This document shows, one piece after another, positions 38,454 through 62,733 of a stretch of 64,000 nucleotides of DNA. Origin of the DNA: Halopseudomonas aestusnigri. Its GTDB lineage: Bacteria; Pseudomonadota; Gammaproteobacteria; Pseudomonadales; Pseudomonadaceae. The position numbers and the translations under genes were made by a program. The notes beneath the pieces were generated by a model. The model worked only from the letters and a program-made list of their open reading frames with translations. It ran no database searches and was not told the DNA's origin. The stretch spans positions 45,461-109,460 of the forward strand of contig NZ_NBYK01000012.1 of assembly GCF_002197985.1 (NCBI RefSeq), in the 5' to 3' direction. Position 1 is the first letter of the stretch; the number at the start of each line of letters is the position of its first letter.

Positions 38454-38620
38454 TCTGCTCCCCCGATGACGCCTGTTCGTTAAGGTTCAGTTAAGCGCAA
38501 GTTGGGCATGCTGCCTGCGCCGGACGGAAAAATACGGCAACAAAGTTCGGCTTGGTTGCCATGAGTGCTCGGACTCACTCTGTGGTCCAAGCAACTGACA
38601 TGCCATTGACGGAGAAGTCC

Positions 38621-47994: not shown

Positions 47995-48711
47995 TCAGTT
48001 GAGCGCGGCGAGGATCGACCGCAGCTGGCCGGCGTCCACCTGATTGGCGTTGGCCAGGCTCAGGAACGACTGGCTGGTGCCGCTCCAGGCGTTGATCAGG
48101 CTGGGCAGATTGCGGGCCACGGAGCTGGCCTCACTGATGCTGCGGGTCAGCTCACCGGCGGCCATCGGGTTGGACAGCAGCGAGCCGGCACTGCCCTTGG
48201 CGCTGTCCAGCCAGCTCTGGAACGCGCCGCTCAGCAGCGAGCCTTCCTTCAGACCGTTCTGGTAGAAGGGAATGGCCTCGGCCAGCGTGCTGCGGTTTGC
48301 CCCGCTCAGTGTGCCGCCCTGTGCGAGCAGGCCCTGAATCAGTGCCTGGTTGCTGCTGGTCAGCTCGGTGTCAGCGGCGATCGATGCCGTGTCCGTGTTT
48401 GCCCCCTGTGCATAGTTGGCGGCCGCAGCCAGCGTGCGACTGGCGATGTCGGTTTGCCCCGTCGCTTCCAGGGTTTTGGCCTGGGCCATCAGCATGTTGT
48501 TCATGCTCGCGTTGAAGCGCTGCATCAGCAGATCCTGCTGCTGGGCCAGGTTTTCGGCACCGGCGGCTTCGCCACCTTGCGCTGCTGTGTTCAGCGCTGC
48601 GCCTGCGGCGGCCTTCAGCGAGTCCAGACCAAATGCCTGAGCCTGACTGGCGGCCAGCATGCCGGCGGCGATCAGGCTCAGCAGGCCTGCGTGGATGCGG
48701 TTGTTCTTCAT
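47995..48711 (-). CDS. Secreted alpha-helical protein of unknown function
   Basis: A 238-residue protein with a signal peptide ending AQA-F. The mature part is rich in Ala, Ser, Leu, Gln and Asn with no cysteine, and is almost certainly helical (LAQQQDLLMQRFNASMNNMLMAQAKTLEATGQ, then repeated LxxA patterns). It is probably periplasmic or extracellular. I do not recognise the family. It lies downstream of the DUF1329 operon terminator and so has its own promoter in the gap above. Confidence 0.7.
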   Translation of the reverse strand: MKNNRIHAGLLSLIAAGMLAASQAQAFGLDSLKAAAGAALNTAAQGGEAAGAENLAQQQDLLMQRFNASMNNMLMAQAKTLEATGQTDIASRTLAAAANYAQGANTDTASIAADTELTSSNQALIQGLLAQGGTLSGANRSTLAEAIPFYQNGLKEGSLLSGAFQSWLDSAKGSAGSLLSNPMAAGELTRSISEASSVARNLPSLINAWSGTSQSFLSLANANQVDAGQLRSILAALN

Positions 48712-49027
48712 CTTTCCATATTCTCCTGAATGGGGCTCCGTCGTGGATTTGCGTCGTTCCAGAGGTCCTTCCTGCAGTGCTGCTGGCGTGCTGCAAAGGC
48801 AATGGCAAAGCGGGTCTACCTGACGCAGCGCGCACTCTACCCGATTCGAGCGCTCGGCGGGAGCAGGTGCAGTTGATAGATGCTGACTGGTTATCGGGCC
48901 GTGAGTACTTGGGCGAGGCGGAGCAGCGTCTGCGGGATGAGCGTCGTCTACTCACCGCCATGCCGTAATAAACCAAAAAAAGCCCGCGTTGCGCGGGCTT
49001 AATACGGAGCAGTGCCGGTGTTGCTGA
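48712..49027. other. Gap between the secreted protein gene and the DUF1329 operon
   Basis: 316 bp holding the operon terminator at 48980-49000 and, presumably, the promoter of the secreted helical protein gene. Plus-strand codons about 48860-48968 look partly coding-like and end in TAA TAA, but no start codon or ribosome-binding site supports a gene. Confidence 0.5.
48972..49000 (-). terminator. Terminator of the DUF1329-DUF1302-RND-YCF48 operon
   Basis: Reading the minus strand, AAGCCCGCG/CGCGGGCTT around a three-base loop is followed by TTTTTT. It is 28 bp past the DUF1329 stop. Confidence 0.88.
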
Positions 49028-50347
49028 TCAGTTCCCGGTGGCGCGCATGTGCTGAACGCTGAACATGTCCGGGGTGCTCAGGCTGGGGTCGACCTGGCCC
49101 TTGAATTGGCCGGTGGTGCAGTGCATGGCCTGTACGTCGATCATGCTGAAGCTGTCGTCAATGGATACGCCACTGCCCTGGTTGGCAGGCAGGTGGTGGT
49201 CCGGGTGGGCCTGGCCGATGGTGAAGGTTTTCCACATGCTGCCCTTGCGGTCATAGGCCACGGTGCGCGGGATGGTGAAGGTCTGGGCATCCATGAAGTG
49301 CACGCGGCGGGACAGCGGGTGGCTGCCGTCGACCGGGGTGGCCTCCACTTCGTAGACCTTGCGCAGCTGCCAGGTGATGTTCGGGAAGCAACCGCCCTTG
49401 CCGGAGAACGCCACGACCTGATAACCGTCGCTGTCCTGATGGGTTTCGGTATCGAGTTGCAGCTCGTTGTGGTTGTAGAAGGGCATGAGCATGTAACGGG
49501 TGCCCTTGTAGGCCCAGTTCATGTCGGAAATACGGCCGTTGTAGCCCTCGAAGTCTTCGATCATCAGATCGGAACCCAGGAAGGCGTCGGTGACCTGACC
49601 GGTGGCCAGGCGGCGTACGCGGCGCTGAAAGCCCAGATACAGCCAGGAGTTGTCGCGCTTGAGGTCGTCCATGGCACGGTGGATGAGCAGTTGGGTGTTG
49701 CGCACATCATGCGGCTCGAGCACCTGCACGTAGATACCGCGGAACAGCTCCGACGGGTTGGGCGTGATCGCCGGCAGCGGCTCCTGATTGACCCGGCCGG
49801 TGAAGTTCAGGAAGTGAAAGTTGAACTTGATGGTGCGCTCAACCTTGTCGGTGTTCATGTCCCGATACTTCCAGTAGAACGGGTAGATGGCGGCGCTGTC
49901 GCCCCAGTTGTAGCCGTACTTGTAATTCCAGGCGAGTTTCTCGCCGGCACGCGGATCGTTGGCATCCGGCTCTTCCGGGAATGGCCGTCCGGCCTGCCAG
50001 CCGTTCAGCTCGCCGGGCTTGGCACCCAGACTGACGTTGCCTAGACCCGCCCGGCTGGCTTCCACGTAGTTGGGATGAAGGTCGAAGGAGGTGGTCTCGC
50101 CGACCTTGATTTCAACCCAGCCCTGTTCGATGAAGTTGTAGAACGCCGGGTCGATGATGTCCCGGAACTGGGCAACGTTGGCCTGATTGATGGTCATGCC
50201 GGTGGTGAGCCCCGGTGCGCTGGGCGCGGACTCACGATAGGGATAGAAGCTGTTGTCGACGACATCGGCCTGGGCCTGCGCGGTGCAGGCAATCGCCAGT
50301 GCCGTCAGTACGCCGGCCAGGATACGGGTGTGCTTGTTGTTGTTCAT
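49028..50347 (-). CDS. DUF1329 periplasmic protein
   Basis: A 439-residue exported protein with signal peptide ending AQA-DVV (about residue 27). The mature sequence has DUF1329 marks: the MTINQANVAQFRDIIDPAF region, the YRDMNTDKVERTIKF stretch and the KGCFPNITWQLRKVYEVEATP region. The family is uncharacterised; by its length and beta-rich pattern it looks like an outer-membrane lipoprotein-carrier (LolB-like) fold that could shuttle a hydrophobic ligand. It is the last gene of a four-gene operon and follows DUF1302 by 13 bp. Confidence 0.85.
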   Translation of the reverse strand: MNNNKHTRILAGVLTALAIACTAQAQADVVDNSFYPYRESAPSAPGLTTGMTINQANVAQFRDIIDPAFYNFIEQGWVEIKVGETTSFDLHPNYVEASRAGLGNVSLGAKPGELNGWQAGRPFPEEPDANDPRAGEKLAWNYKYGYNWGDSAAIYPFYWKYRDMNTDKVERTIKFNFHFLNFTGRVNQEPLPAITPNPSELFRGIYVQVLEPHDVRNTQLLIHRAMDDLKRDNSWLYLGFQRRVRRLATGQVTDAFLGSDLMIEDFEGYNGRISDMNWAYKGTRYMLMPFYNHNELQLDTETHQDSDGYQVVAFSGKGGCFPNITWQLRKVYEVEATPVDGSHPLSRRVHFMDAQTFTIPRTVAYDRKGSMWKTFTIGQAHPDHHLPANQGSGVSIDDSFSMIDVQAMHCTTGQFKGQVDPSLSTPDMFSVQHMRATGN

Positions 50348-50360
50348 GCTGTTCTCCGAA

Positions 50361-52250
50361 TCAGAAGCTGTAGCGGACGGTCAGTTGCAGTTCGTCCTGG
50401 TTTTTGGCCATGCCCAGCGGGCCGGCGCGGAAGCGACCCAGCGGCTCATAACCGGTCAGCCCCAGGCTGAAACCTTCGGGGTGGCCCGGATAGGCGGCGG
50501 TGAAGGGATCCCAGGGGTTGCAGGTGCGGCAGTCATCGAACTTGTTGGCACCGCTGCCGACCTTCAGGTTGGCGCCCCCGATGACCCGCAGGTTGTCGCT
50601 GACCAGCCATTCGATGCTCGGTGCGATGGTGGTGGCGCCGGCGCGGAAGTCATGCGCAGCCAGCAGTTGCGGGCTCAATCGGTCATTCATCCACCAGCCC
50701 TTGACCAGCAGGGTGCCGATCCAGTTGGCTTTCCAGTCCGGCATGCCGACCCGGCCCAGGGCCCGACGCTCACTCTGGTACTCGTGGATGTGCTGGCCAA
50801 AGATCTGACCCGAGAACAGGAAGGCGCGGCGGCTGTTGAGCCACGGCAGGAAGATGTTCTTGTCGGCACCGACCACATAGCGGGTGACGTTGCTCTCCGA
50901 GAACAAACGGGTCTGCATGGTGTTGGCGAACTCTTCCCCTTCGGTGTGGGCGAGTTCGACGCGGAACACGGTATCCAGCGCCTGGGCGTAGTAGTCCAGC
51001 GAGCCGCCGATCAGGTTGACGCGGGGGAAGTGGATGTCGAACGCGATCAGGTAGGGCCAGATGCCGGTCTCACCGGTGAACCCGTTCTGCGCCGGAATAC
51101 CGCCGCGCAGCGAGGGCAGCTGGCTGCGATAGGTGAGGGCGTTGAGCGAGAAGCCAAGGTCGCGATAGACACCTTCAAGCTTGATGCCGAACTGGGTGTT
51201 GGACAGGCTCCAGTCAGGCATGTGCGCCTCGCGGATACCGATCTGGCCGGGGCCGAAGTCGGTCGCAATCGAGCCATTGGCGAAGTTGGCGACGGTGCCG
51301 CCGTGCTCCCAGAGTGTGTTCATGCCGCGGAAGAAGCAACCCGCGTCGAGAATCACGTTGGGCGAACCGCATTGGCCGATGTTGTGCGGACGGAAGCGGT
51401 CGAAGTTCCAGACGAAGGAGACGTTCAGGTCGTCGAAGATGTCGCCGGCGCCCATGCGGTAGTCGGATTTGACGATCCACATCGGGATGCGGATGTCTTC
51501 CAGCTCGTCGTAAATATTGTTGCGCGAGAAGTCGACCGGGTTGATGACGTCCAGCACCCGGAACAGGTCGGTGCGGCCCCAGATGACCTGTTGTTTGCCC
51601 AGGCGGGTGCTGAGGATATGGCCGTTGTCGAAGCTGTAGTCGAAGTCGACGTACAGTTCGCGAATGAAGTCGAGCCGGTCATTGAACTCGGAGAAGCGCA
51701 GGTCGTTGGTGTCCTGATCCAGGTAGCCGTTGATACAGCCGCGGCTGTCGACATCACAGGGCCGCACCGGGACGCCGAAGGCGACGCCGCCGCTGGTGCT
51801 GTGCAGGTTCTCGCCGAGCACAATCATGCCCTTGTTGGGGTGATCGGCCACATTGAAGGTGTTGGGCAATTGCAGACCGCCACCGTGGGGCACACTGGTG
51901 CTGCCGCCGAAACCGCTGGTGTTCTCCAGGCGAATGCTGCCGCCGGCGCTGCGGCCGTACTCGCTGCTGTTGAGGTCGTAGACCCCGTCGTAGCTGCCAC
52001 GAAATACGCCGTTCCAGGAAACGTTGCTGAAGATGCCGAGTTCGCCGAACTCGCGCTCGGCGTTGATCTGCACCGTGTTGCGAAATTTCGACAGCCCGGC
52101 GGAGTCACGCACGTAGGTCGCGTTCTCGTAGAAGCCGGTTATCTCGGTTTCCTCACTGGCGATCGCAGCGCTGAGCGGGCTCAGCAACAGCCCGGTGCCA
52201 CTCGCCAGAGCGAGGCTCCAGCGTCCGAGGCCTTTTATTTTTGTTTGCAT
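50361..52250 (-). CDS. DUF1302 outer-membrane beta-barrel protein
   Basis: A 629-residue protein with a signal peptide (cleavage about 31, AIA-SEE). The mature protein alternates hydrophobic/polar strands throughout and ends in LQLTVRYSF, the C-terminal aromatic signature of outer-membrane barrels. Stretches such as RLGKQQVIWGRTDLFRVLDVINPVDF are characteristic of DUF1302. Two cysteine pairs (PCDVDSRGC, DDCRTC) may form loop disulfides. It would provide the outer-membrane channel of the operon. Sequence-based substrate prediction is not possible. Confidence 0.88.
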   Translation of the reverse strand: MQTKIKGLGRWSLALASGTGLLLSPLSAAIASEETEITGFYENATYVRDSAGLSKFRNTVQINAEREFGELGIFSNVSWNGVFRGSYDGVYDLNSSEYGRSAGGSIRLENTSGFGGSTSVPHGGGLQLPNTFNVADHPNKGMIVLGENLHSTSGGVAFGVPVRPCDVDSRGCINGYLDQDTNDLRFSEFNDRLDFIRELYVDFDYSFDNGHILSTRLGKQQVIWGRTDLFRVLDVINPVDFSRNNIYDELEDIRIPMWIVKSDYRMGAGDIFDDLNVSFVWNFDRFRPHNIGQCGSPNVILDAGCFFRGMNTLWEHGGTVANFANGSIATDFGPGQIGIREAHMPDWSLSNTQFGIKLEGVYRDLGFSLNALTYRSQLPSLRGGIPAQNGFTGETGIWPYLIAFDIHFPRVNLIGGSLDYYAQALDTVFRVELAHTEGEEFANTMQTRLFSESNVTRYVVGADKNIFLPWLNSRRAFLFSGQIFGQHIHEYQSERRALGRVGMPDWKANWIGTLLVKGWWMNDRLSPQLLAAHDFRAGATTIAPSIEWLVSDNLRVIGGANLKVGSGANKFDDCRTCNPWDPFTAAYPGHPEGFSLGLTGYEPLGRFRAGPLGMAKNQDELQLTVRYSF

Positions 52251-52263
52251 TGGCAGTTCCTCA

Positions 52264-54729
52264 TTACAGTGGGATAGGGCAGGACGAGTCGAACTCAGCC
52301 TGCCCCGTTATCAGCGCCCCGACAGGCTGCGGGGCACTGGCTGCCGGGCGATCGGCATGCAGGATGCCATCCTCGTCGGCGTAGACATCGGTGATGAAGC
52401 GCGGGCGCATCACCAGCACCCAGGAGGGCACCAGCAGCATGGCGGCCAGGCCGTTGATGACGATCATCACGCACAGCAGCATTGCCGCGTCGGACTGGAA
52501 GCGCAGGTCCGACAGCAACACCCACATGACGATGCCGGCCATCAGGGTGACGGCGGTGAAACTGATGGCCATGCCGGTGGTGGCGATCGCCTGGCGAACG
52601 GCATCCACCAGCCTGCCGCTCTTGGCCATTTCCTCGCGGATGCGGTCCATCATGTAGATCGAGTAGTCGATGCCCACACCAATGCCGACGGCGATGACCG
52701 GCACGGTGTTGATGTCGATGTTGAGTCCGGCCAGGCCCATGTAGGCGTAGGTAAGGGTGGTCGCGAAGGTCATCGCCAGCAGCATCATCAGCCCGGCGTG
52801 CCAAGAGGTGTAGAACAGCATCACGAAGGCGAAGATCAGCAGAAATACCAACGGCAGCACGACCAGATTGGTTTCGAAGGCCGACTCGTTCATGGCCGCG
52901 GCAACGCCGAGGGTGCCGCCGGCCAGCCGGATGGTCAGGCCTTCAACCTGGCCGTCGTGTTCGGCGATCCATTCGCGCGCCATGTGAATGGCACGACGGA
53001 TGGTCTCGCCCTGGCGATCCTTGTAGTAGAACACCAGGTTGGCGATGCGATCGTCGGTATCGTTGAACTCGTTCAACGCCCCGGGAATCGGGCTCGACGC
53101 CATATAGGTAAACATCAGCCCGCCGACGTAGTCCGCTTCATGGGGGATCTGGAACCAGCGTGGATCGTCGTTGTGCATCAGCCGGTTGACCTGCTTGATC
53201 AGGTCCGGCAAACCCTTGCTGCCACCGACCGCCGGATCGGCCAGCATGTGCGCCTGCAAGTCTTGCAGGGCGCGCAGTACCTCGGGTTTTTTCAGCCCGC
53301 CTTTCTCGGCGTGTTCGGCGATGATGTACAGCTCTTCGGAGCCGGGGAAGCGGTCATTCACTTCCTTGGACGACAGGTTGTAGTCGTGGTCGGGGTAGAG
53401 GATGGGTGAACCCGGCTCCGAGTCGCCGATACGTACCTGGGAGGCGGCGACCAGACCCAGGGCAATGGCCAGCGCGGCAGCGCCAAGCACGACCCGCGCC
53501 GCGCCCGGACGGCTGACGGTGCGGGCACAGGTGGCGCCGATATGGCGCAGGAAGGTTTCCTTGATCTCGGGGTTTTTCGGTGTCGGCAGGATCGACAGCA
53601 GCAGCGGTACGCCAATCAGCACGGTCAGGATCACGGTCATCGCCCACAGCGAGGCATAGACGCCCAGCTTGGTATTCAGGGCAATGGAGCCGATGGCGAT
53701 CAGCGACAGGCCTACGGCGTCGGAGACCACGCCAAGCGAGCCCGGGCGGAACAGGCTGTCAAAGGTCGCCCTGGCCGCTTTCGGGCCGTTGCCAAGAACA
53801 CGCACCTCGGCGTAGTAGCGCTCGACCAGTTGCACCCCGTGGCTCATCGCCCGCGCGGCAATCAGGAAGGGAATAACCAGCCCCAGCGGATCCAGGTTGA
53901 AGCCCAGCAGGCTGATGATGCCCAGACCCCAGATGGTCGAGATCAGCACGCCGCCAAGGGGAATCAGCACCCCGTAGGCCTTGCGGAAATGGAACACCAG
54001 CAGCGACAGCATGATCAGCACGGTAAAGATGAAGATCTGCAGAATCTGGTCCATGTAGGTGTAGGCCCAGCCCACCAGCACCGGCTGGCCGGTGGCATAC
54101 AGGGTGACGCCATTGCCGCTTTCCGCCTCGCGCAGGGCCTGCAACTGGGCGAAGGTGGCGGCGTAGTCGAGCTGGCCTTCGATCAGTTGCGCCTTGACCA
54201 GCGCCATCTTGAAGTCGGAGGACACCAGCGGGCCGTAGATGCGCGGGTTGGCGGCTACATCCGCGCGCATCTGCGCTAGTTGCTCATCGCTGTAGTTGCC
54301 GTTTTGCGCGTCAAAGTAGGGCTCGGAGTTGATCGAGCCGACCTCGGTCAGCCAGATCTTGCGCGAGTTGCGGTGGGTGACGCTGGTCACCAGGTTGTGG
54401 TTGACGCCGGGCAGGTTGTCGACGGCCTGGGTGACCCGGTCAATGGTGGCCAGGTTGGCGTTGGAGAAAATGTCACCGTTGTCGAAGGCGACGCCCACGA
54501 CCAGCACGTTGGCCCCGCCGAAGCTGTCCTTGATGCTGTTGTGCAGCTCGATATAGGGGTGTTCCTGCGGCAGCAGATCGGCAAAGTCGGTATAGATTTT
54601 CAGCCCCGGTATGCGCAGCGCAAACAGCAGGGTCAGCAGGGCGATGGCGGCCAGCACCTTGCGTGGATTGTTGAACATCCACACCTCAAGACCGTGCATG
54701 GCATGGGTAAAACGATGTAATCCAGACAT
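52264..54729 (-). CDS. RND/MMPL-family transporter
   Basis: An 821-residue inner-membrane transporter with twelve predicted helices in two halves: helix 1 near 22-42, helices 2-6 near 240-400, helix 7 near 425-445, and 8-12 near 640-780. Two large periplasmic domains lie between. Sequences GIGVGIDYSIYMMDRIREEM and GLVIPFLIAARAMSHGVQLVERYY are typical of MmpL/HpnN-like RND proteins that move lipids or hydrophobic molecules. No canonical membrane-fusion partner gene is present. It is 9 bp after the YCF48-like gene. Confidence 0.9.
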   Translation of the reverse strand: MSGLHRFTHAMHGLEVWMFNNPRKVLAAIALLTLLFALRIPGLKIYTDFADLLPQEHPYIELHNSIKDSFGGANVLVVGVAFDNGDIFSNANLATIDRVTQAVDNLPGVNHNLVTSVTHRNSRKIWLTEVGSINSEPYFDAQNGNYSDEQLAQMRADVAANPRIYGPLVSSDFKMALVKAQLIEGQLDYAATFAQLQALREAESGNGVTLYATGQPVLVGWAYTYMDQILQIFIFTVLIMLSLLVFHFRKAYGVLIPLGGVLISTIWGLGIISLLGFNLDPLGLVIPFLIAARAMSHGVQLVERYYAEVRVLGNGPKAARATFDSLFRPGSLGVVSDAVGLSLIAIGSIALNTKLGVYASLWAMTVILTVLIGVPLLLSILPTPKNPEIKETFLRHIGATCARTVSRPGAARVVLGAAALAIALGLVAASQVRIGDSEPGSPILYPDHDYNLSSKEVNDRFPGSEELYIIAEHAEKGGLKKPEVLRALQDLQAHMLADPAVGGSKGLPDLIKQVNRLMHNDDPRWFQIPHEADYVGGLMFTYMASSPIPGALNEFNDTDDRIANLVFYYKDRQGETIRRAIHMAREWIAEHDGQVEGLTIRLAGGTLGVAAAMNESAFETNLVVLPLVFLLIFAFVMLFYTSWHAGLMMLLAMTFATTLTYAYMGLAGLNIDINTVPVIAVGIGVGIDYSIYMMDRIREEMAKSGRLVDAVRQAIATTGMAISFTAVTLMAGIVMWVLLSDLRFQSDAAMLLCVMIVINGLAAMLLVPSWVLVMRPRFITDVYADEDGILHADRPAASAPQPVGALITGQAEFDSSCPIPL

Positions 54730-54738
54730 GTCGGTTCC

Positions 54739-55734
54739 TCAGTCAGCGCTGGCCGCCAGGGCCTTTGGGAGTTGAATATTCAGCAGCGTGCCGCGCCCGC
54801 CGGCCGCCAGCAGATGCTGCTCGGGCACGAGCAGACCGGCACGCAGATACAGGGGCTGATTGGGCGTGGCCAGCGGCTGCCAGCGGCTGCCGTGCAGGTT
54901 GAGTACGGTGGTGTTTTCGCCGAGGGCATAGAGTGCGTTGCCATCACTGACAAAGCCGAAGATCGGCGCTTCGGTGCCGCTGGGCTGCTTGCGCCAGGTT
55001 TCTCCGGCATCGCGGGTGTGCCAGATGAAGCCGTTCAGCCCACCGACCCAGCCTTCATCGAGGTCGCGGAAGAAGCTGGCGTGGGGGTAGAACTCGTCAG
55101 GCAGGCTGCCGGCCGGCTCCCAGCTGATCCCGGCGTCGCGGCTTTGATAGACCAGTCCGTATTCGCCGGTTACCACGGCGTGCTCGGCGTCGATGAACTG
55201 CAGGGTAGTGAGAATGGCGTCCTCATCCAGACTGGATTCGTCCCAGCTGGCGCCCTGGTCTGCACTGTGCTGCAGGGTGCTGAAACTGCCGACCGCCCAC
55301 CAGCTGCCGTCCGGCGCGCAGGCGGTTGCCATCATCTGCTCGCTGCTGGGCAGTGAGTGGCTGCTCCACTGGCTGGCATCCGGGCTGCCGTGCCAGAGCT
55401 GGTTGTCGAAACTCAGGGCGATGAAACTGCGGTCCGGACACACATCCAGATCGACCAGACTCATGCTGGTCGGTAGCGGCTGGCGTTGCCAGCTGGTGCC
55501 CTGATCACTGCTGCGCAGCACCACGCCATCGTTACCGACGATGAGGGTGGTTTCACCATTGCTGGCCATGGCCTGGTAGAAGTCGGTGCGTTGCAGGGCT
55601 TCGCTGTGCTGGCGCTCTACCGCGTCCAGATTCAGCGGCGCCTCGCAGCCGGTCAGGAGCATCGAGCAAGCCAGTCCGGCAAGCAGATGCCGACGACCCG
55701 GCGCACCTCGGAGAGGTGTTGGTATGTCAAACAT
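54739..55734 (-). CDS. YCF48-like BNR-repeat lipoprotein
   Basis: A 331-residue lipoprotein. The signal ends in LLTGC with lipidated Cys30, so it is anchored in the envelope. The rest is a beta-propeller with repeated Asp-box motifs SSDQGTSW, SADQGASW, SRDAGISW and TRDAGETW. It resembles the photosystem II assembly factor YCF48, a family found in many non-photosynthetic bacteria beside RND genes. It is the first gene of the operon; ATG 55734 has GGTGA upstream and lies about 44 bp below a predicted sigma-54 start site. Confidence 0.85.
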   Translation of the reverse strand: MFDIPTPLRGAPGRRHLLAGLACSMLLTGCEAPLNLDAVERQHSEALQRTDFYQAMASNGETTLIVGNDGVVLRSSDQGTSWQRQPLPTSMSLVDLDVCPDRSFIALSFDNQLWHGSPDASQWSSHSLPSSEQMMATACAPDGSWWAVGSFSTLQHSADQGASWDESSLDEDAILTTLQFIDAEHAVVTGEYGLVYQSRDAGISWEPAGSLPDEFYPHASFFRDLDEGWVGGLNGFIWHTRDAGETWRKQPSGTEAPIFGFVSDGNALYALGENTTVLNLHGSRWQPLATPNQPLYLRAGLLVPEQHLLAAGGRGTLLNIQLPKALAASAD

Positions 55735-55788
55735 GGTATGTCACCAATCAGGGTTTTATTTTTATTCACGGAGCGACAGAGGCTCGGT

Positions 55789-55804
55789 AGCAAGCGCTGT
55801 GCCA
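55789..55804 (-). promoter_or_regulatory. Sigma-54 promoter of the YCF48-RND-DUF1302-DUF1329 operon
   Basis: On the minus strand TGGCACAGCGCTTGCT (55804-55789) has GG and GC exactly ten bases apart and matches the sigma-54 consensus TGGCAC-N5-TTGC fully. The predicted start is near 55778, about 44 bp before the ATG. Confidence 0.88.
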
Positions 55805-55821
55805 GCGCTTTCGCATAATTC

Positions 55822-55834
55822 CAACTGGCTGATT
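55822..55834 (-). promoter_or_regulatory. IHF-like site in the YCF48 operon promoter
   Basis: Minus-strand AATCAGCCAGTTG matches the IHF consensus WATCAANNNNTTR except one base, about 44-56 bp upstream of the predicted start, between promoter and operator. Confidence 0.45.
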
Positions 55835-55900
55835 GGTAACGGTTTTTTATTGGTTGGTGGTTTTTGCGCGGGAACCAAGCTGCGTTTCGGGCAGGGTAAT

Positions 55901-55916
55901 TTGATCAATTGATAAA
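55901..55916. promoter_or_regulatory. XylR/DmpR-type operator upstream of the YCF48 operon
   Basis: TTGATCAATTGATAAA differs at one position from the palindromic XylR/DmpR-type site TTGATCAATTGATCAA as I know it. It lies 123-138 bp upstream of the predicted sigma-54 start. A weaker copy (TTGCTGATTTGGTAAA, 55931-55946, 11 of 16) lies one helical-turn multiple further up. Confidence 0.75.
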
Positions 55917-56035
55917 AGTGCAGGCGGGGCTTGCTGATTTGGTAAAGCGCGGGTTCGGACTGGGTTGCTCTGACGGGTGAGAGGGCGCTCCTTGCCCGGT
56001 GCAAGGAGCTATTCGGGCGGGTAGTCGCTGCCGGG

Positions 56036-57751
56036 CTAGTGCTGTTCGCTCTCTTCCAGAATGCCGGACTTCTTCAGCCGATATGCCAGCGCCGGGCGTG
56101 TCAGCCCCAGCCTCCTGGCGGCCTCGGATACGTTTTGGCCGGCGTCCTCCATGGCGCGACGCATGAGACTGTTTTCGACCTCTTCCAGGCTGACGCCGGA
56201 GGTCAGAATCTGTGATACCCAGTCGCCTCCGGTGGCAATGTCGCTGCCATGGACGATGGTGCCGAAATCGTTCAGACGGTCATCGCAGGATGTCTCGATA
56301 ATCTCCGGGCTGACTGCGAACAGCGCGTCCTGGCTGATGCTCTCGTTGCTGTCGGTCAGAATCACGCCGCGTTCGATGACGTTTTCCAGTTCGCGGATAT
56401 TGCCTGGCCAGTGGTAGTTCAGGCACAGCTCCAGCGCCTTGTCCGACAGCCCCAGGGTGCGCTTCTGGTAGGCATGGTGCGATTTGCGCAGGAAGTGCTC
56501 GGCCAGCAGCGGAATGTCCTCCTGCCGCTCCCGCAGTGGCGGAATCTGAACCGGGAACACATTCAGGCGGTAGTACAGGTCGGCTCGGAAGCGCCCCTTT
56601 TCGACGGCATCGGCCAGGCTTTCGTTGGTGGCGGCAATCACCCGCACATCGATCTTGCGGGTATGCGAGTCACCTACCCGCTCCAGTTCACCTTCCTGCA
56701 GCACGCGCAGCAGGGTGGCCTGGGCCCTTGGCGGCAGTTCGATCACCTCGTCGAGAAAGATGGTTCCGCCATTGGCCCGTTCAAAACGGCCGGCACGTGC
56801 CTGGTGAGCACCGGTGTAGGCGCCTTTTTCAACGCCGAACAGTTCTGCCTCGATCAGATCGGGCGGGATGGCGGCGCAGTTGACGGCCACGAACGGCTTG
56901 TCGGCGCGCTCGCTGCGTTGATGCACACTGCGGGCAATCACCTCCTTGCCAACGCCGGTCTCGCCCAGCAGCAGCACCGAGACCTTGCCCTTGGCGGCCT
57001 TGTCGATGGTCTGGCAGACCTTTTTGTAGGCGCTCGACTGGCCGATGCCGTAGTACTGACCTTCCTGCTGATCCAGGTCGTTTTGCAGCGAACTCAGCCG
57101 CGATTGCAGGTCGTAAAGCTCCTCGATAATGGGGTCTTCCCTGAAGTAGCTTTTGAACTGCTCCGCGTCATCCCATTCCTCCGCCGGCTTGCCGACGATC
57201 AGGCAGCGCTCATCGCCGCAGCCGCGGCAGCTGACTTCGCGGAAGATGATTTCACGCCGCATGAATGAGGAGCTGTAGGCACAGGCATAGCCCAGCAACG
57301 ACCAGCAGGCGGGTTCATGCATCAGCCCCAATTCCGTCTGGCAAATCTCGACCTCGAACGAGTCTACCCACTCCAGCTCGCCATAGAAGTGGCCCTTCTG
57401 GTGGTCAAGATCAATCTGGATTGGCTTGACCTTGACCATGCCCTTGAGTGAATGCAGCTGCGGACCGACGAGGAATATATCGAGTTCGTTGTTGTGTGGC
57501 CTGAGTTTGCGAGCCAGCTCGGCATCCTTGAGTCCCGACTGGTAGCCCATGCGCAGAAAGAAGCCCTTGGCGCGCTCGATACCGAGGGTGTTTACCAGCT
57601 CACGCCGGAAGCTGGCCATGGCGGACACCTGCATCAGCAGCATGCGCTGCTCGGCAAACCAGATTTTGCCGTCCGTGCTCTGAAAGCGGATCTGCTCGGT
57701 CAGATCGTGATAGTCCGAATACTGCAGGTGCGGCTTGTAGCTGGTCGCCAT
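56036..57751 (-). CDS. dmpR: Sigma-54-dependent phenol-responsive activator (DmpR/XylR family)
   Basis: A 571-residue activator. The N-terminal sensor (about 1-210) includes a XylR N domain and a V4R domain with a cysteine cluster (C149, C157, C175, C178, C183; CRGCGDERC) expected to hold zinc beside the phenol pocket. A B-linker (about 212-235) leads to the AAA+ domain with Walker A GETGVGKE (263-270), the sigma-54 loop GAYTGA (310-315, not the common GAFTGA), Walker B IFLDE, and sensor arginines in [21 protein letters not shown]-type helix-turn-helix ([22 protein letters not shown]) ends it. It faces away from dmpK, and a sigma-54 promoter lies at each end of the locus. Confidence 0.92.
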
Positions 57752-58063: not shown

Positions 58064-58079
58064 TGGCATAGCCGTTGCT
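58064..58079 (+). promoter_or_regulatory. Sigma-54 promoter of the dmpK operon
   Basis: TGGCATAGCCGTTGCT, with GG (58065-58066) and GC (58077-58078) ten bases apart. Predicted start near 58090, 27 bp before the dmpK ATG. Confidence 0.88.
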
Positions 58080-58116: not shown

Positions 58117-58368
58117 ATGAGCCAGACCGCCCAAAGCTTTGACCAGATGACCCGCTGGATTCGGGTACGCAGCGAACCGGACGCCCGCTTTGTCGAGTTC
58201 GACTTTGCCATCGGTCACCCCGATCTGTTCGTCGAACTGGTGCTTCCGAAAGACGCTTTCGTTCAGTTCTGCAAACACAACCAGGTTGTTCACATGGATG
58301 AGGCCATGGCCCGTCAGGTTGACGAGGACATGGTGAAGTGGCGCTTCGGCGAGAAAGGCCAGCGCTGA
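58117..58368 (+). CDS. dmpK: Phenol hydroxylase assembly protein
   Basis: An 83-residue protein, first gene of the operon. It belongs to the DmpK/PhK family needed to produce active phenol hydroxylase, probably by helping iron loading into the oxygenase, while not needed for catalysis by the finished enzyme. The motif RWIRVRSEPDARFVEFDFAIG is typical. ATG 58117 has GGTGAAG upstream. Confidence 0.9.
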   Translation: MSQTAQSFDQMTRWIRVRSEPDARFVEFDFAIGHPDLFVELVLPKDAFVQFCKHNQVVHMDEAMARQVDEDMVKWRFGEKGQR

Positions 58369-58413
58369 TTCCGATCCGACACACCCCTACAAAAACAAAA
58401 CGGTACGGTTGTC

Positions 58414-59415
58414 ATGAGCATTGAAATCAAAACCAACTCGGTGGAGCCGATTCGGCACACCTACAGCAACATCAAGCGCCGCTTTGGCGACAAGCCTGCC
58501 TCGCGCTATCAGGAAGCCAGCTTCGATATCGAGGCGACCACCAACTTCCATTACCGCCCCCTGTGGGATGCCGAGCACGGTCTGAATGACCCGACCCGCA
58601 CTGCCATCCGCATGGCCGACTGGTACGCGGTAAGCGATCCGCGCCAGTTCTTTTACGGTGCCTACGTGCAGAACCGCGCCAAGATGCAGGAGGCCGCCGA
58701 GCACAGCTTCAGCTTCTGCGACAAGCGCAATCTGCTGACCCGCATGCCGGAGGCGCTGCAGGAAACTTTGCTGCGTCTGCTGGTGCCGCTGCGCCATATG
58801 GAGCTGGGCGCCAACATGAACAACAGCAGCATCGCTGGCGATGCGGTGGCCGGCACGGTCACCCAGATGCACATCTATCAGGCCATGGACCGCCTGGGCA
58901 TGGGCCAGTACCTGTCGCGCATTGCCCTGCTGATCGACGGCAGCACCGGCGAGGCTCTGGATCGCTCGAAGACCTACTGGATGGAAGACGTACTCTGGCA
59001 GCCGCTGCGCAAGCTGGTTGAGGACAGTCTGGTGGTCAAGGACTGGTTCGAGCTGACCGTACTGCAGAACCTGCTGATCGATGGCCTGCTGTACCCGCTG
59101 ATGTATCACAAGTTCGATCAGTGGCTGGCGGAGCAGGGGGCCGAGGATGTCTCGATGCTCACCGAGTTCATGCGTGACTGGCACGCCGAATCCTGCCGCT
59201 GGGTCGATGCCATGCTCAAGACCGTGCGCGCGGAAAGTGATGCCAATGCCGAGCAGCTGCAGCGCTGGATTGCCCACTGGCAGCCGCGGGTCATCGCTGC
59301 CCTGCAGCCGCTCGCCAACGCCAGCGTCGGTGTCGCAGCGCTGGACGAGGTGGTTGGCCAATTCGACCAGCGGCTGAAGAAGCTCGGCTTGGTCGCCGAG
59401 GAGGTCGCCGCATGA
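58414..59415 (+). CDS. dmpL: Phenol hydroxylase beta subunit
   Basis: A 333-residue beta subunit of the multicomponent phenol 2-monooxygenase. It is a ferritin-like helical protein lacking the metal ligands and supports the alpha subunit in the (alpha-beta-gamma)2 oxygenase. Typical stretches are SVEPIRHTYSNIKRRFGDKPASRYQEASFDIEATTNFHYRPLWD and FYGAYVQNRAKMQEAAE. It overlaps dmpM by 4 bp (ATGA), so translation is coupled. Confidence 0.94.
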   Translation: MSIEIKTNSVEPIRHTYSNIKRRFGDKPASRYQEASFDIEATTNFHYRPLWDAEHGLNDPTRTAIRMADWYAVSDPRQFFYGAYVQNRAKMQEAAEHSFSFCDKRNLLTRMPEALQETLLRLLVPLRHMELGANMNNSSIAGDAVAGTVTQMHIYQAMDRLGMGQYLSRIALLIDGSTGEALDRSKTYWMEDVLWQPLRKLVEDSLVVKDWFELTVLQNLLIDGLLYPLMYHKFDQWLAEQGAEDVSMLTEFMRDWHAESCRWVDAMLKTVRAESDANAEQLQRWIAHWQPRVIAALQPLANASVGVAALDEVVGQFDQRLKKLGLVAEEVAA

Positions 59416-59684
59416 GCCAGCTCGCCTTCATCGTTTTTCAGGACAACGACAACGCCCGCTACCTGGTAGAGGCGATTGCCGAAGACAACCCCCACGCCGA
59501 AGTGCAGCACCACCCGGCCATGATCCGCATCCAGGCTGAAAAGCGCCTGGTAATCAACCGTGCCACGGTTGAGGAAAAGATCGGTCGCGAGTGGGACGTG
59601 CAGGAAATGCTCCTGGACGTGATCAGCATCGGCGGCAACGTGGATGAGGATGAAGACCACTTCATCCTCGAGTGGAAAAACTAG
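59412..59684 (+). CDS. dmpM: Phenol hydroxylase coupling/effector protein
   Basis: A 90-residue cofactor-free effector (MmoB-like) that couples electron delivery to oxygen activation at the oxygenase. Family motif NDNARYLVEAIAEDNPHAEV and the SIGGNVDEDEDHFILEW ending are clear. It overlaps dmpL at its start and ends 10 bp before the dmpN ATG. Confidence 0.94.
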   Translation: MSQLAFIVFQDNDNARYLVEAIAEDNPHAEVQHHPAMIRIQAEKRLVINRATVEEKIGREWDVQEMLLDVISIGGNVDEDEDHFILEWKN

Positions 59685-59694
59685 GAGACCCCTC

Positions 59695-61239
59695 ATGGCT
59701 ACCAAGAACAAGAAGCTCAGCCTCAAAGACAAGTACCAGTACCTGACCCGCGACATGGCCTGGGAACCGAGCTACCAGAAGAAGGAAGATATCTTCCCCT
59801 ACGAACGCTTCGAGGGGATCAAGATCACCGACTGGGACAAGTGGGAGGATCCCTTCCGCCTGACCATGGATGCCTACTGGAAGTATCAGGCCGAGAAAGA
59901 GAAGAAGCTGTACGCCATCTTCGACGCGTTCGCCCAGAACAACGGCCACCAGAATATTTCCGATGCGCGCTACGTCAACGCCCTCAAGCTGTTTCTGACC
60001 GGTGTTTCGCCGCTGGAATATGGCGCGTTTCAGGGCTACGCCAAGGTTGGCCGGCATTTCAGCGGTGCCGGTGCGCGGGTAGCCTGCCAGATGCAGTCGA
60101 TTGATGAGCTGCGTCACGTGCAGACCCAGCTGCACGCCATGAGCCACTACAACAAGCACTTCAACGGCCTGCACGATTTTGCCCACATGCACGACCGGGT
60201 CTGGTTCCTGTCGGTGCCCAAGTCGTTCTTTGACGACGCTCGCTCGGCTGGCCCGTTCGAGTTTCTGACGGCCATTTCGTTCTCGTTCGAATATGTGCTG
60301 ACCAACCTGCTGTTCGTGCCGTTCATGTCCGGCGCGGCGTACAACGGCGATATGGCCACCGTGACCTTCGGCTTCTCGGCGCAATCGGACGAGGCCCGTC
60401 ACATGACTCTGGGCCTTGAGGTCATCAAGTTCATGCTCGAGCAGCACGAGGACAACGTGCCGATCGTGCAGCACTGGATCGACAAGTGGTTCTGGCGCGG
60501 TTACCGCCTGCTGAGCCTGGTCAGCATGATGATGGACTACATGCTGCCCAACAAGGTGATGTCCTGGAAGGATGCGTGGGAGGTCTATTACGAGCAGAAC
60601 GGCGGCGCCCTGTTCAAGGATCTGGAGCGTTACGGCATTCGCCCGCCCAAGTATCAGGACGTGGCCAACGACGGCAAGAACCACATCAGCCATCAGCTGT
60701 GGTCGACCTTCTATCAGTACAGCCACGCCACCAACTTCCATACCTGGTTGCCCAGTGCCGCGGAAATGGACTGGCTGTCCGAGCAGTACCCGGACACCTT
60801 CGACAAGTACTACCGCCCGCGCTTCGAGCACTGGCAGAAGATGCAGGACAAGGGTGAGCGTTTCTACAACAACACCCTGCCGCAACTGTGCCAGGTGTGC
60901 CAGGTGCCGACCCTGTTCACCGAGCACGGCGATCCGACCCAGCTGAGCCTGCGCACACTGGAGCACGAGGGCGAGCGTTATCACTTCTGCTCGGATGGCT
61001 GCTGCGACATTTTCAAGTACGAGCCCGAGAAGTACATCCAGTCCTGGTTGCCGGTGCACCAGATCTATCAGGGCAACTGCGAGGGGGCAGACGTCGAGAC
61101 CGTGGTCTCGAAGTACTACCACATCAATATCGGCCAGGACAATTTCGACTACGTGGGTTCGCCGGATCACCAGCGCTGGCAGGCGATCAAGGGCAATCGG
61201 CCGCTCGGGGGCGATGACGACTCCCGGGACGCCGCCTGA
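59695..61239 (+). CDS. dmpN: Phenol hydroxylase diiron alpha subunit
   Basis: The 514-residue catalytic subunit that hydroxylates phenol to catechol with O2. The expected diiron ligands are all present: E108, E138 and H141 (DELRH), E199, E233 and H236 (DEARH). The C-terminal region holds a CQVCQVP and CSDGCC cysteine set that may bind zinc. Start at ATG 59695, with AGGAG upstream; the longer frame from 59644 lies inside dmpM and is not used. Length is usual for DmpN/PhN. Confidence 0.96.
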   Translation: MATKNKKLSLKDKYQYLTRDMAWEPSYQKKEDIFPYERFEGIKITDWDKWEDPFRLTMDAYWKYQAEKEKKLYAIFDAFAQNNGHQNISDARYVNALKLFLTGVSPLEYGAFQGYAKVGRHFSGAGARVACQMQSIDELRHVQTQLHAMSHYNKHFNGLHDFAHMHDRVWFLSVPKSFFDDARSAGPFEFLTAISFSFEYVLTNLLFVPFMSGAAYNGDMATVTFGFSAQSDEARHMTLGLEVIKFMLEQHEDNVPIVQHWIDKWFWRGYRLLSLVSMMMDYMLPNKVMSWKDAWEVYYEQNGGALFKDLERYGIRPPKYQDVANDGKNHISHQLWSTFYQYSHATNFHTWLPSAAEMDWLSEQYPDTFDKYYRPRFEHWQKMQDKGERFYNNTLPQLCQVCQVPTLFTEHGDPTQLSLRTLEHEGERYHFCSDGCCDIFKYEPEKYIQSWLPVHQIYQGNCEGADVETVVSKYYHINIGQDNFDYVGSPDHQRWQAIKGNRPLGGDDDSRDAA

Positions 61240-61301
61240 CCTTTCACAACACCCGGCCCCGACCGACAGGTCGGGGCGACAACAAGAACAAGGTGATCTC
61301 C

Positions 61302-61661
61302 ATGAGCGTTAAAGCCCTTTATCAATACAGCGCCGAACCGCGTGACCTGCAGGCCAACTTCAATGGCATGCAACTGGTCTATCTGTACTGGCCGAACCAT
61401 CTGCTGTTCTGTTCGCCGTTTGCCTTTCTGGCGTCGCCCGAGATGAGCATGGGCGAGTTCTGCGAGCAGGTTGTGCGCCCGGCCATTGCCGCCCACCCGC
61501 AGGCCGCCGGCCTGGACTTTGGCCAGGCCCAGTGGCAGCTCAACAATCAGCCGTTCAGCCCGGACCCTGCGCTCAGCCTGGCGCAGAACGGGGTGGCGCA
61601 CAAAGCGCTGCTGACCCTGCGCGTGCCCGGCCTTGACGGTATCGCCGGCGGCGCAATCTGA
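61302..61661 (+). CDS. dmpO: Phenol hydroxylase gamma subunit
   Basis: The 119-residue third oxygenase subunit, with the DmpO pattern VKALYQYSAEPRDLQANFNGMQLVYLYWPNHLLFCSPFAFL. No cofactor is expected. ATG 61302 has AAGGTG upstream; a GTG at 61293 is possible but less likely. It lies 62 bp past dmpN and 10 bp before dmpP. Confidence 0.92.
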   Translation: MSVKALYQYSAEPRDLQANFNGMQLVYLYWPNHLLFCSPFAFLASPEMSMGEFCEQVVRPAIAAHPQAAGLDFGQAQWQLNNQPFSPDPALSLAQNGVAHKALLTLRVPGLDGIAGGAI

Positions 61662-61671
61662 GGAGGCGGTC

Positions 61672-62733
61672 ATGAGCTATACAGTCACGATTGAGCCGAC
61701 CGGCGAACAGATTGAGGTCGAGGAAGACCAGACCATCCTCCAGGCCGCGCTGCGTCAGGGTGTCTGGCTGCCGTTCGCCTGCGGCCACGGCACCTGCGCG
61801 ACCTGCAAGGTGCAGGTGCTGGAGGGCGACGTGGATATCGGCGAGGCCTCGCCGTTCGCGCTGATGGATGTCGAGCGCGACGAAGGCAAGGTGCTGGCCT
61901 GCTGCGCCACGGTGCAGAGCGATGTGACCATCGAAGCCGATATCGATGTGGATGAAGACTTCGAGGGCTATTCGGTAGAGGACTACCGGGCCACGGTCAG
62001 CGAACTGCTGCCACTGTCACCGACCATTTTGGGCGTGCGCCTGAAGCTGGATCGCGCGATGCAGTTTCAGGCTGGCCAGTACATCAACCTGGAACTGCCG
62101 GGCATTGAGGGCAGCCGTGCGTTCTCGCTGGCCAATCCGCCGAGCCGGCCGGACGAGGTCGAGCTGCATGTGCGGCTGGTCGAAGGTGGCGCAGCCACCG
62201 GCTACATCCATCAGCAACTGAAGGTGGGTGATCAGCTGTCGCTGTCCGGACCCTACGGCATGTTCTTTGTGCGCAACTCGCAGCCGGGCGATCTGATCTT
62301 TATTGCCGGCGGCTCGGGGCTGTCCAGCCCGCAGTCGATGATTCTCGACCTGCTGGAGCAGGGCGACAGCCGCCAGATCACCCTGTTTCAGGGCGCGCGC
62401 AACCGCAGCGAACTCTACAACGCCGAGCTGTTCGAGCAACTGGCTGCCAGCCACGCCAATTTCACCTACGTACCGGCGCTCAGCCAGGCGGCCGATGACA
62501 GCGAGTGGCAGGGCTTCCGTGGCTATGTGCACGACGCTGCCAAGGCGCACTTTGACGGCCGTTTTGCCGGTCACAAGGCCTACCTGTGCGGCCCGCCGCC
62601 GATGATCGATGCGGCTATTACCGCCCTGATGCAGGGCCGGCTGTTTGAGCGCGACATCTTCATGGAGCGTTTCTACACCGCCGCCGACGGTGCAGAGGAC
62701 ACCCAGCGCTCGGCGCTATTCAAGCGGATCTGA
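61672..62733 (+). CDS. dmpP: Phenol hydroxylase reductase
   Basis: A 353-residue NADH reductase passing electrons to the diiron oxygenase. A plant-type 2Fe-2S ferredoxin domain (C37, C42, C45, C77) is followed by a ferredoxin-NADP reductase-type domain with RAFSLANPP for FAD and GGSGLSSPQ then CGPPPMIDA for NADH. The normal FAD motif RxYS is here RAFS, a conservative change. Starts at ATG 61672 with AGGAGG upstream. It completes the six phenol hydroxylase genes in the order K-L-M-N-O-P. Confidence 0.95.
   Translation: MSYTVTIEPTGEQIEVEEDQTILQAALRQGVWLPFACGHGTCATCKVQVLEGDVDIGEASPFALMDVERDEGKVLACCATVQSDVTIEADIDVDEDFEGYSVEDYRATVSELLPLSPTILGVRLKLDRAMQFQAGQYINLELPGIEGSRAFSLANPPSRPDEVELHVRLVEGGAATGYIHQQLKVGDQLSLSGPYGMFFVRNSQPGDLIFIAGGSGLSSPQSMILDLLEQGDSRQITLFQGARNRSELYNAELFEQLAASHANFTYVPALSQAADDSEWQGFRGYVHDAAKAHFDGRFAGHKAYLCGPPPMIDAAITALMQGRLFERDIFMERFYTAADGAEDTQRSALFKRI

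Follow-up and report, generated by a model that had tools for sequence, protein, structure and literature searches.

A conserved sigma-54 promoter of XylR/DmpR type in front of a YCF48-RND-DUF1302-DUF1329 operon in Halopseudomonas aestusnigri: a candidate link between phenol breakdown and envelope transport

In the window of this study, a stretch of 64,000 nucleotides of Halopseudomonas aestusnigri DNA, a gene for a DmpR-like sigma-54 activator has phenol hydroxylase genes on one flank and, across a gap of 301 bp, an operon for a YCF48 protein, an RND/MMPL transporter, a DUF1302 protein and a DUF1329 protein on the other. The locus raises the question whether this gap carries a promoter that answers to the adjacent activator and, if so, what a transport operon would contribute to a phenol regulon.

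Layout of the promoter region and its neighbours

In the direction of the YCF48 gene the gap contains a weak operator, an operator with a single mismatch, an IHF-like site and a sigma-54 promoter, all of which face the operon (Table 1). Mismatches were counted against the consensus sequences TTGATCAATTGATCAA for the XylR/DmpR operator and WATCAANNNNTTR for IHF. An IHF site between operator and promoter is a feature of XylR/DmpR-controlled sigma-54 promoters. The end of UAS2 is separated from TGGCAC by 96 bp, and relative to a transcription start inferred near 55778 this operator comes to lie at about -123 to -138 and the operator pair at about -123 to -168. The near-perfect palindrome, the one-mismatch IHF site, the full promoter with correct -24/-12 spacing and the operator-to-start distance of 123-138 bp, all described in the first-pass annotation, were recovered when the sequence was read again. 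XylR/DmpR-type promoters have been defined by a pair of palindromes with centres 29-42 nt apart and 100-200 nt upstream, and the spacing of the XylR and DmpR operators is quoted there as three helical turns (PMC6449761); the pair in the window fits this definition in distance and position, its distal site being weak. A role of the site in the transcription of dmpR itself was rejected, since it sits at the 3' end of dmpR and points away from it.

Table 1. Features of the promoter region and of the adjoining genes (positions in the window)
Feature	Position	Strand	Remarks
Distal operator UAS1, TTTACCAAATCAGCAA	55931..55946	-	weaker; 5 mismatches; exactly 30 bp from UAS2
Proximal operator UAS2, TTTATCAATTGATCAA	55901..55916	-	1 mismatch vs XylR/DmpR palindrome TTGATCAATTGATCAA
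IHF-like site, AATCAGCCAGTTG	55822..55834	-	1 mismatch vs WATCAANNNNTTR, by reading the sequence
Sigma-54 promoter (-24/-12), TGGCACAGCGCTTGCT	55789..55804	-	perfect TGGCAY-N5-TTGCW, GG/GC spacing
YCF48/BNR-repeat protein, operon gene 1	54739..55734	-	PSII_BNR PF14870 5.9e-17
RND/MMPL (HAE3-like) inner-membrane transporter	52264..54729	-	PF03176 2.8e-23; TIGR00921 HAE3 7.2e-36, below cut-off
DUF1302 protein, probable outer-membrane barrel	50361..52250	-	PF06980 6e-42; barrel by analogy with AmeA and PP_0765
DUF1329, LolA-like periplasmic protein, final operon gene	49028..50347	-	PF07044 4.3e-73, PF17131 9.9e-16
Terminator-like hairpin at operon end	48980..49000	-	stem of 9 pairs plus T-run
DmpR/MobR-type sigma-54 activator	56036..57751	-	XylR_N, V4R, Sigma54_activat, HTH_8
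dmpK-promoter operator, TTCATCAAATCATCAA	57927..57942	+	3 mismatches; sigma-54 site 121 bp further on
dmpK sigma-54 promoter, TGGCATAGCCGTTGCT	58064..58079	+	sigma-54 site in 11/11 dmpK-side gaps read
Multicomponent phenol hydroxylase region	58117..62733	+	dmpK, beta, alpha, reductase examined; PF02332 in beta and alpha; reductase 61633-62733

The four genes of the operon follow each other at distances of 9-13 bp, and Pfam matched their products to the families named at first reading (PSII_BNR, MMPL/RND, DUF1302 and DUF1329). The RND protein reached 123.5 bits with the HAE3 model TIGR00921, whose cut-off is 351.9, and its gene has its best named match in Halopseudomonas pachastrellae (99%) in a scan of genome contigs from which records of the own genome were possibly left out. 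Searches of solved structures returned distant RND relatives only (MmpL3, SecDF) and LolA-like fragments, and AlphaFold2 models of the DUF1302 protein (mean pLDDT 30.2, 14 sequences) and the DUF1329 protein (38.3, 12 sequences) were too poor for use. The scan for terminator-like hairpins found five sites against 5.0 in shuffles, so that the hairpin at the end of the operon is to be judged by its position and stem length. Past this hairpin, positions 47995-48711 (-) encode a protein of 238 aa that begins like a signal peptide and matches no Pfam or NCBIfam model. On the plus strand, dmpK and the phenol hydroxylase genes are followed by meta-cleavage-type genes that continue past the end of the window, and an operator with a sigma-54 site precedes dmpK, in line with the phenol hydroxylase promoter that had been annotated on this flank.

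The activator has the XylR_N-V4R sensor, the sigma-54 AAA+ domain and the Fis-type HTH (HTH_8) that its designation as dmpR-like implied. With the MobR model NF041906, of the 'exception' type, it scored 718.5 bits (4.6e-216) at a cut-off of 999 and is therefore named DmpR/MobR-type rather than MobR. Its best solved relative is chain 6iy8 (residues 17-479, E 5.2e-246), deposited as CapR, which we take to be a DmpR structure; MopR sensor structures match as well. In DmpR, His100 (Tyr in XylR) and Trp128 position the phenol hydroxyl (PMC7264223), and both residues are present here and invariant across the seven sequences of alignment A2. Two pocket positions named in the same source differ when the alignment is read by eye (Tyr90 to Leu, Val113 to Ile), and for this reason the effector range may be slightly different from that of DmpR.

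UAS2 is the sole operator in the 64 kb with no more than one mismatch, the other sites listed having three. TGGCAY-N5-TTGCW is found three times (55804-, 58064+, 38605-), and a sigma-54 site combined with an operator of at most three mismatches in two places only, on the YCF48 side and in front of dmpK. The site at 38605 (-) was rejected as a third target because its best operator has eight mismatches; this sigma-54-like sequence, TGGCATGTCAGTTGCT, lies within a 262-aa ORF without a Pfam match. In the own genome (3.83 Mb, 30 contigs) the pattern ATCA-N90..120-TGGCAY-N5-TTGCW gave two matches against one for the reversed control; the second precedes a UreD gene (PF01774, 9.6e-50), and the best operator there has six mismatches.

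Conservation in the genus, the family and wider relatives

Orthologues of the YCF48 protein (at least 65% identity) are present in 13 of the 37 genomes of the genus, and orthologues of the activator (at least 78%) in exactly these 13. The block phenol hydroxylase-dmpR-YCF48-RND-DUF1302-DUF1329 is kept over the stretch fetched at 11 of these 13 loci, and two are cut by contig ends. For the alignment of the gap 12 of the 13 genomes were used, one (G012) being left out since its gene block is split between contigs. The motif TGGCA(C/T)-N5-(T/A)TGCT with GG and GC is present in all 12 aligned gaps, and in its full form TGGCAY-N5-TTGCT in 11 of them. Among five diverged members of the genus the mean pairwise identity amounts to 100% in the promoter (ten letters) and 87% in the operator, with 36% in the spacer between them, and a perfect TTGATCAATTGATCAA operator is found in four genomes (G025, G035, G013, G005). 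In one further genome (G023, locus L030, 12791-14996) the match to DUF1302 is split into two parts separated by a residue gap.

Within the family (298 genomes) the YCF48 protein was found in 22 genomes (E<=1e-40) and the activator in 55 (E<=1e-170), with all 22 of the former among the latter. As 33 of the 55 activator-bearing genomes lack this YCF48 protein, the cassette is probably dispensable for growth on phenol. At nine family loci outside the genus the sigma-54 promoter is present throughout and an operator with at most four mismatches at seven; loci L066 and L067 have a perfect promoter and a best operator with five mismatches. Gene order is kept at eight of the nine. At the ninth (G183, which matches P. 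chengduensis locus L113) the activator gene is about 10 kb away and convergent, and operator and sigma-54 promoter still stand before YCF48. P. chengduensis (L072/L113) and one MAG (L106) carry a second DUF1329 copy (67-68%) right after the operon.

A scan of genome contigs with the RND alignment A3 gave 138 relatives, of which the best 80 were kept; they are partly the same records as the genus and family genomes and include Halopseudomonas, Marinobacter, Pseudomonas/Stutzerimonas, Alteromonas, Paraglaciecola, Neptuniibacter and Marinobacterium. Alignments A3 and A4 do not include locus L073, in which the RND and YCF48 frames are broken. A composite was defined as an operator with at most four mismatches plus a promoter with at least six of seven letters and GG/GC, thresholds that were chosen after the genus alignment was seen. 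Upstream regions were usable at 78 of the 80 loci, one being cut by a contig end (L080) and one dropped for faulty extraction (L150). The composite precedes YCF48 at 60 of these 78 loci among the best 80 of 138 relatives (60/79 if L150 is counted): at 46 of 46 usable loci in the group L076-L122 and at 14 of 32 in L123-L155. The loci share descent, so that these counts are not counts of independent events. The first-pass annotation had made its claim depend on the conservation of operator and promoter in related genomes with the same genes; with the sigma-54 core in all 12 gaps aligned for the genus and the composite at every usable locus of L076-L122, comparative genomics supports the predicted place of the operon in the regulon of the phenol activator.

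When the best 80 loci were scanned on both strands (3,256,546 strand-bases), 115 composites were found, of which 60 precede YCF48, 47 precede dmpK (together 107 of 115) and eight lie elsewhere. Where the stretch contains an activator gene (at least 50% identity) or one of the genes for dmpK, alpha and beta, 53 loci have the composite and nine do not; where it contains no such gene, the numbers are seven and nine, and each of the seven genomes with a composite but no linked gene encodes a homologue of the activator, with 57% identity or more, elsewhere or past the end of the stretch. The 18 composite-less loci among the 78 were all re-read, and ten of them, unlinked or weakly linked, lack a good operator as well as a sigma-54 site that points towards the operon. 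Of the two cassettes in Neptuniibacter sp. CAU 1671, the one beside the phenol hydroxylase (L130) carries the composite and the other (L142) does not. On an RND tree of 81 rows, built by a quick method and with the two loci of unreadable upstream region (L080, L150) entered as 'none', the composite requires 10 changes compared with 17.9 in shuffles, none of 500 being as low, and the clade of the window is composite-positive in 47 of 48 cases, with L080 as the sole exception. Of the 60 promoters with a composite, 40 have their best operator pair at a spacing of 29-31 bp, in agreement with the three helical turns given for XylR and DmpR (PMC6449761), and seven have no pair. Between operator and promoter, 43 of the 60 have an IHF-like site that deviates at no more than one position, compared with about 10 of 60 for mononucleotide shuffles.

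The own genome contains eight DUF1329 genes, on contigs C1, C3, C4, C12 and C21, all above the Pfam cut-off, with the window copy scoring lowest. That the composite goes with any DUF1329 cassette was rejected, as it is absent at the seven other loci (about 4.1 kb each). At six loci, several of them from Porticoccaceae (L147, L148, L149, L151, L152, L154), dmpK and the YCF48 operon point away from each other with no activator gene in between; operator-like sites with at most five mismatches occur at five of the six, and a sigma-54 site facing YCF48 at L148 and L152 only.

Regulation of the operon and its presumed function

It is highly probable that positions 55735-56035 form a regulatory region through which the activator and sigma-54 would co-induce the operon and the phenol hydroxylase. 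Regulation is very likely on the evidence of sequence, synteny and conservation; binding, phenol dependence, complex formation and the direction of transport are inferred. The DmpR/MobR-type activator, with a phenolic effector bound, would occupy the two operators three helical turns apart, and IHF-assisted looping would allow it to meet the sigma-54 RNA polymerase at the promoter. The four genes would then be switched on together with the phenol hydroxylase on the other flank of the activator gene. Their products most probably form a trans-envelope RND (HAE3) system like AmeABCD that would clear the membrane or the periplasm of toxic hydrophobic aromatics, be it the substrate or intermediates. 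Export of toxic aromatics, or tolerance towards them, is by analogy the function we somewhat favour, and to regulation and export together, as the best explanation of the locus as a whole, we give odds of roughly two in three. It counts against this explanation that phenol itself is not very hydrophobic.

The analogy is taken from Castellaniella defragrans, in which the same four components, DUF1302 (AmeA), DUF1329 (AmeB), a COG4447/YCF48-like protein (AmeC) and an HAE3 RND protein (AmeD), are encoded in a catabolic island, in the order ameABCD in contrast to YCF48-RND-DUF1302-DUF1329 in the window; that system concerns monoterpenes instead of phenol, and the available part of the report mentions no sigma-54 activator (PMC6394551). 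Deletion of ameABCD lowered monoterpene tolerance and increased Nile Red accumulation (PMC6394551), and with the components in common this makes export the leading functional guess. For the regulatory arrangement the closest experimental precedent is EtpR of Aromatoleum aromaticum EbN1, an XylR_N-V4R sigma-54 activator whose gene is flanked by a catabolic cluster and a putative solvent-efflux cluster; each of the two has sigma-54 motifs and requires EtpR and its effector in vivo, and the pathway is the anaerobic one for p-ethylphenol (PMC4630880). AphR, of the DmpR group, is predicted to control adjacent operons with COG4447, COG1033, PF07044 and DUF1302 in Burkholderia sp. 383, with a suggested role of the cassette proteins in solvent stress; that study covers Betaproteobacteria only and links AphR to the cassette in one genome, AphS or AphT in others (PMC6449761). 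A DUF1302/DUF1329 pair is drawn near a phenol hydroxylase and a sigma-54 regulator in Zoogloea oleivorans (PMC7012976), and for refinery phenol degraders the available part of the report describes the dmp operon with dmpR and does not mention the cassette (PMC7285258). The dmpK side of the window shares its operator type and its sigma-54 promoter with the DmpR/dmp operon; the window differs from that system in a second target operon, encoding transport, on the opposite flank.

These precedents divide the claim of a linked, undescribed function. It stands insofar as no report of a gammaproteobacterial link between DmpR and the cassette was found in the full-text literature searched, most subscription journals being outside its scope. 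It does not wholly stand for the link as such, since in one betaproteobacterium a DmpR-family activator had already been predicted to control the same four families, and control of a neighbouring 'efflux' cluster by EtpR had already been shown. The locus is accordingly filed as an unusually well-conserved gammaproteobacterial case of a sensor-linked transport operon, with EtpR as an experimental and AphR as a predicted precedent.

The rival explanations concern either the cargo or the regulator. With the regulation unchanged, the operon may serve the uptake or passage of hydrophobic aromatic or lipid-like substrates or a remodelling of the outer membrane, which we regard as rather unlikely. 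The common view is that phenol needs no transporter to enter cells, and this speaks against uptake. Uptake, or else lipid traffic, is the main rival because PP_0765/PP_0766 (DUF1302/DUF1329) of P. putida are required for growth on Tween 20, for which substrate transport was proposed (PMC10866462), and because a 'Nanopod' cluster (DUF1329, YCF48, MMPL), highly expressed in a benzene degrader, was proposed to transport benzene (PMC13101534). The deletion of ameABCD, the sole deletion study of a full cassette that was found, points the other way, as lower tolerance and more dye suggest export (PMC6394551).

That another sigma-54 activator of the XylR/DmpR group, and not the adjacent one, is the main regulator of the operon is improbable. 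Several of the bacteria searched do carry more than one activator homologue, and operators are alike within the group (PMC6449761), but the own genome, searched with the activator at E<=1e-100, returned the activator itself as the only match. At 43 of the 46 usable loci L076-L122 YCF48 is preceded on its own strand by the activator gene, and the operator on the YCF48 side resembles that of dmpK. It is hardly credible that the motifs are due to chance or to passive hitch-hiking of old intergenic sequence. Many species share the synteny of the entire block, and neighbours are therefore not independent witnesses; against this reading, promoter and operator are kept where the spacer falls to 36% identity, the composite is kept after rearrangement, and it appeared in none of 3160 dinucleotide shuffles of the homologous upstream regions, among which the 40 shuffles of the faulty locus L150 remain.

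Co-regulation with probable export is thus the reading we retain, and judged by sequence comparison the switch for phenol breakdown seems to turn on a transport operon as well in dozens of marine and soil relatives, probably as a protection against the toxic growth substrate. A wider proposal is offered tentatively, as possible: a two-armed DmpR-type master switch across Pseudomonadaceae, Marinobacter, Alteromonadaceae and Oceanospirillaceae that would drive both the phenol hydroxylase and a four-protein trans-envelope machine moving the aromatic substrate or an upstream hydrocarbon (benzene, toluene, alkylphenols). If this were true, the breakdown of a toxic nutrient and its traffic across the envelope would be wired together as one conserved unit. 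Cassettes of DUF1302, DUF1329, YCF48 and HAE3-RND proteins occur in several degraders of hydrocarbons and aromatics, and a conserved cognate sensor indicates the class of compounds that probably induces this subfamily, which makes the substrate of the cassette directly testable. The data also suggest that in many environmental bacteria a second operon is among the targets of the DmpR-type phenol regulon, a point of relevance to biosensors, bioremediation and solvent-tolerant hosts.

Loci in which dmpR is followed by other genes

The position downstream of dmpR is not exclusive to the cassette. Ten dmpR loci without an adjoining cassette were examined, including the second dmpR copy of G106 (L173), a genome whose cassette is elsewhere, and at three of them (L166, L167, L170) an operator and a sigma-54 site lie directly 3' of dmpR before other genes. 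Behind these composites are genes for a protein of about 200 aa without a Pfam match followed by an aldehyde dehydrogenase, and for a catechol 1,2-dioxygenase. The slot downstream of dmpR seems to have taken up second targets more than once. At L172 a composite is found from about 4812 (+), 1.5 kb past dmpR, where it precedes a run of alcohol dehydrogenase, aldehyde dehydrogenase and desaturase genes.
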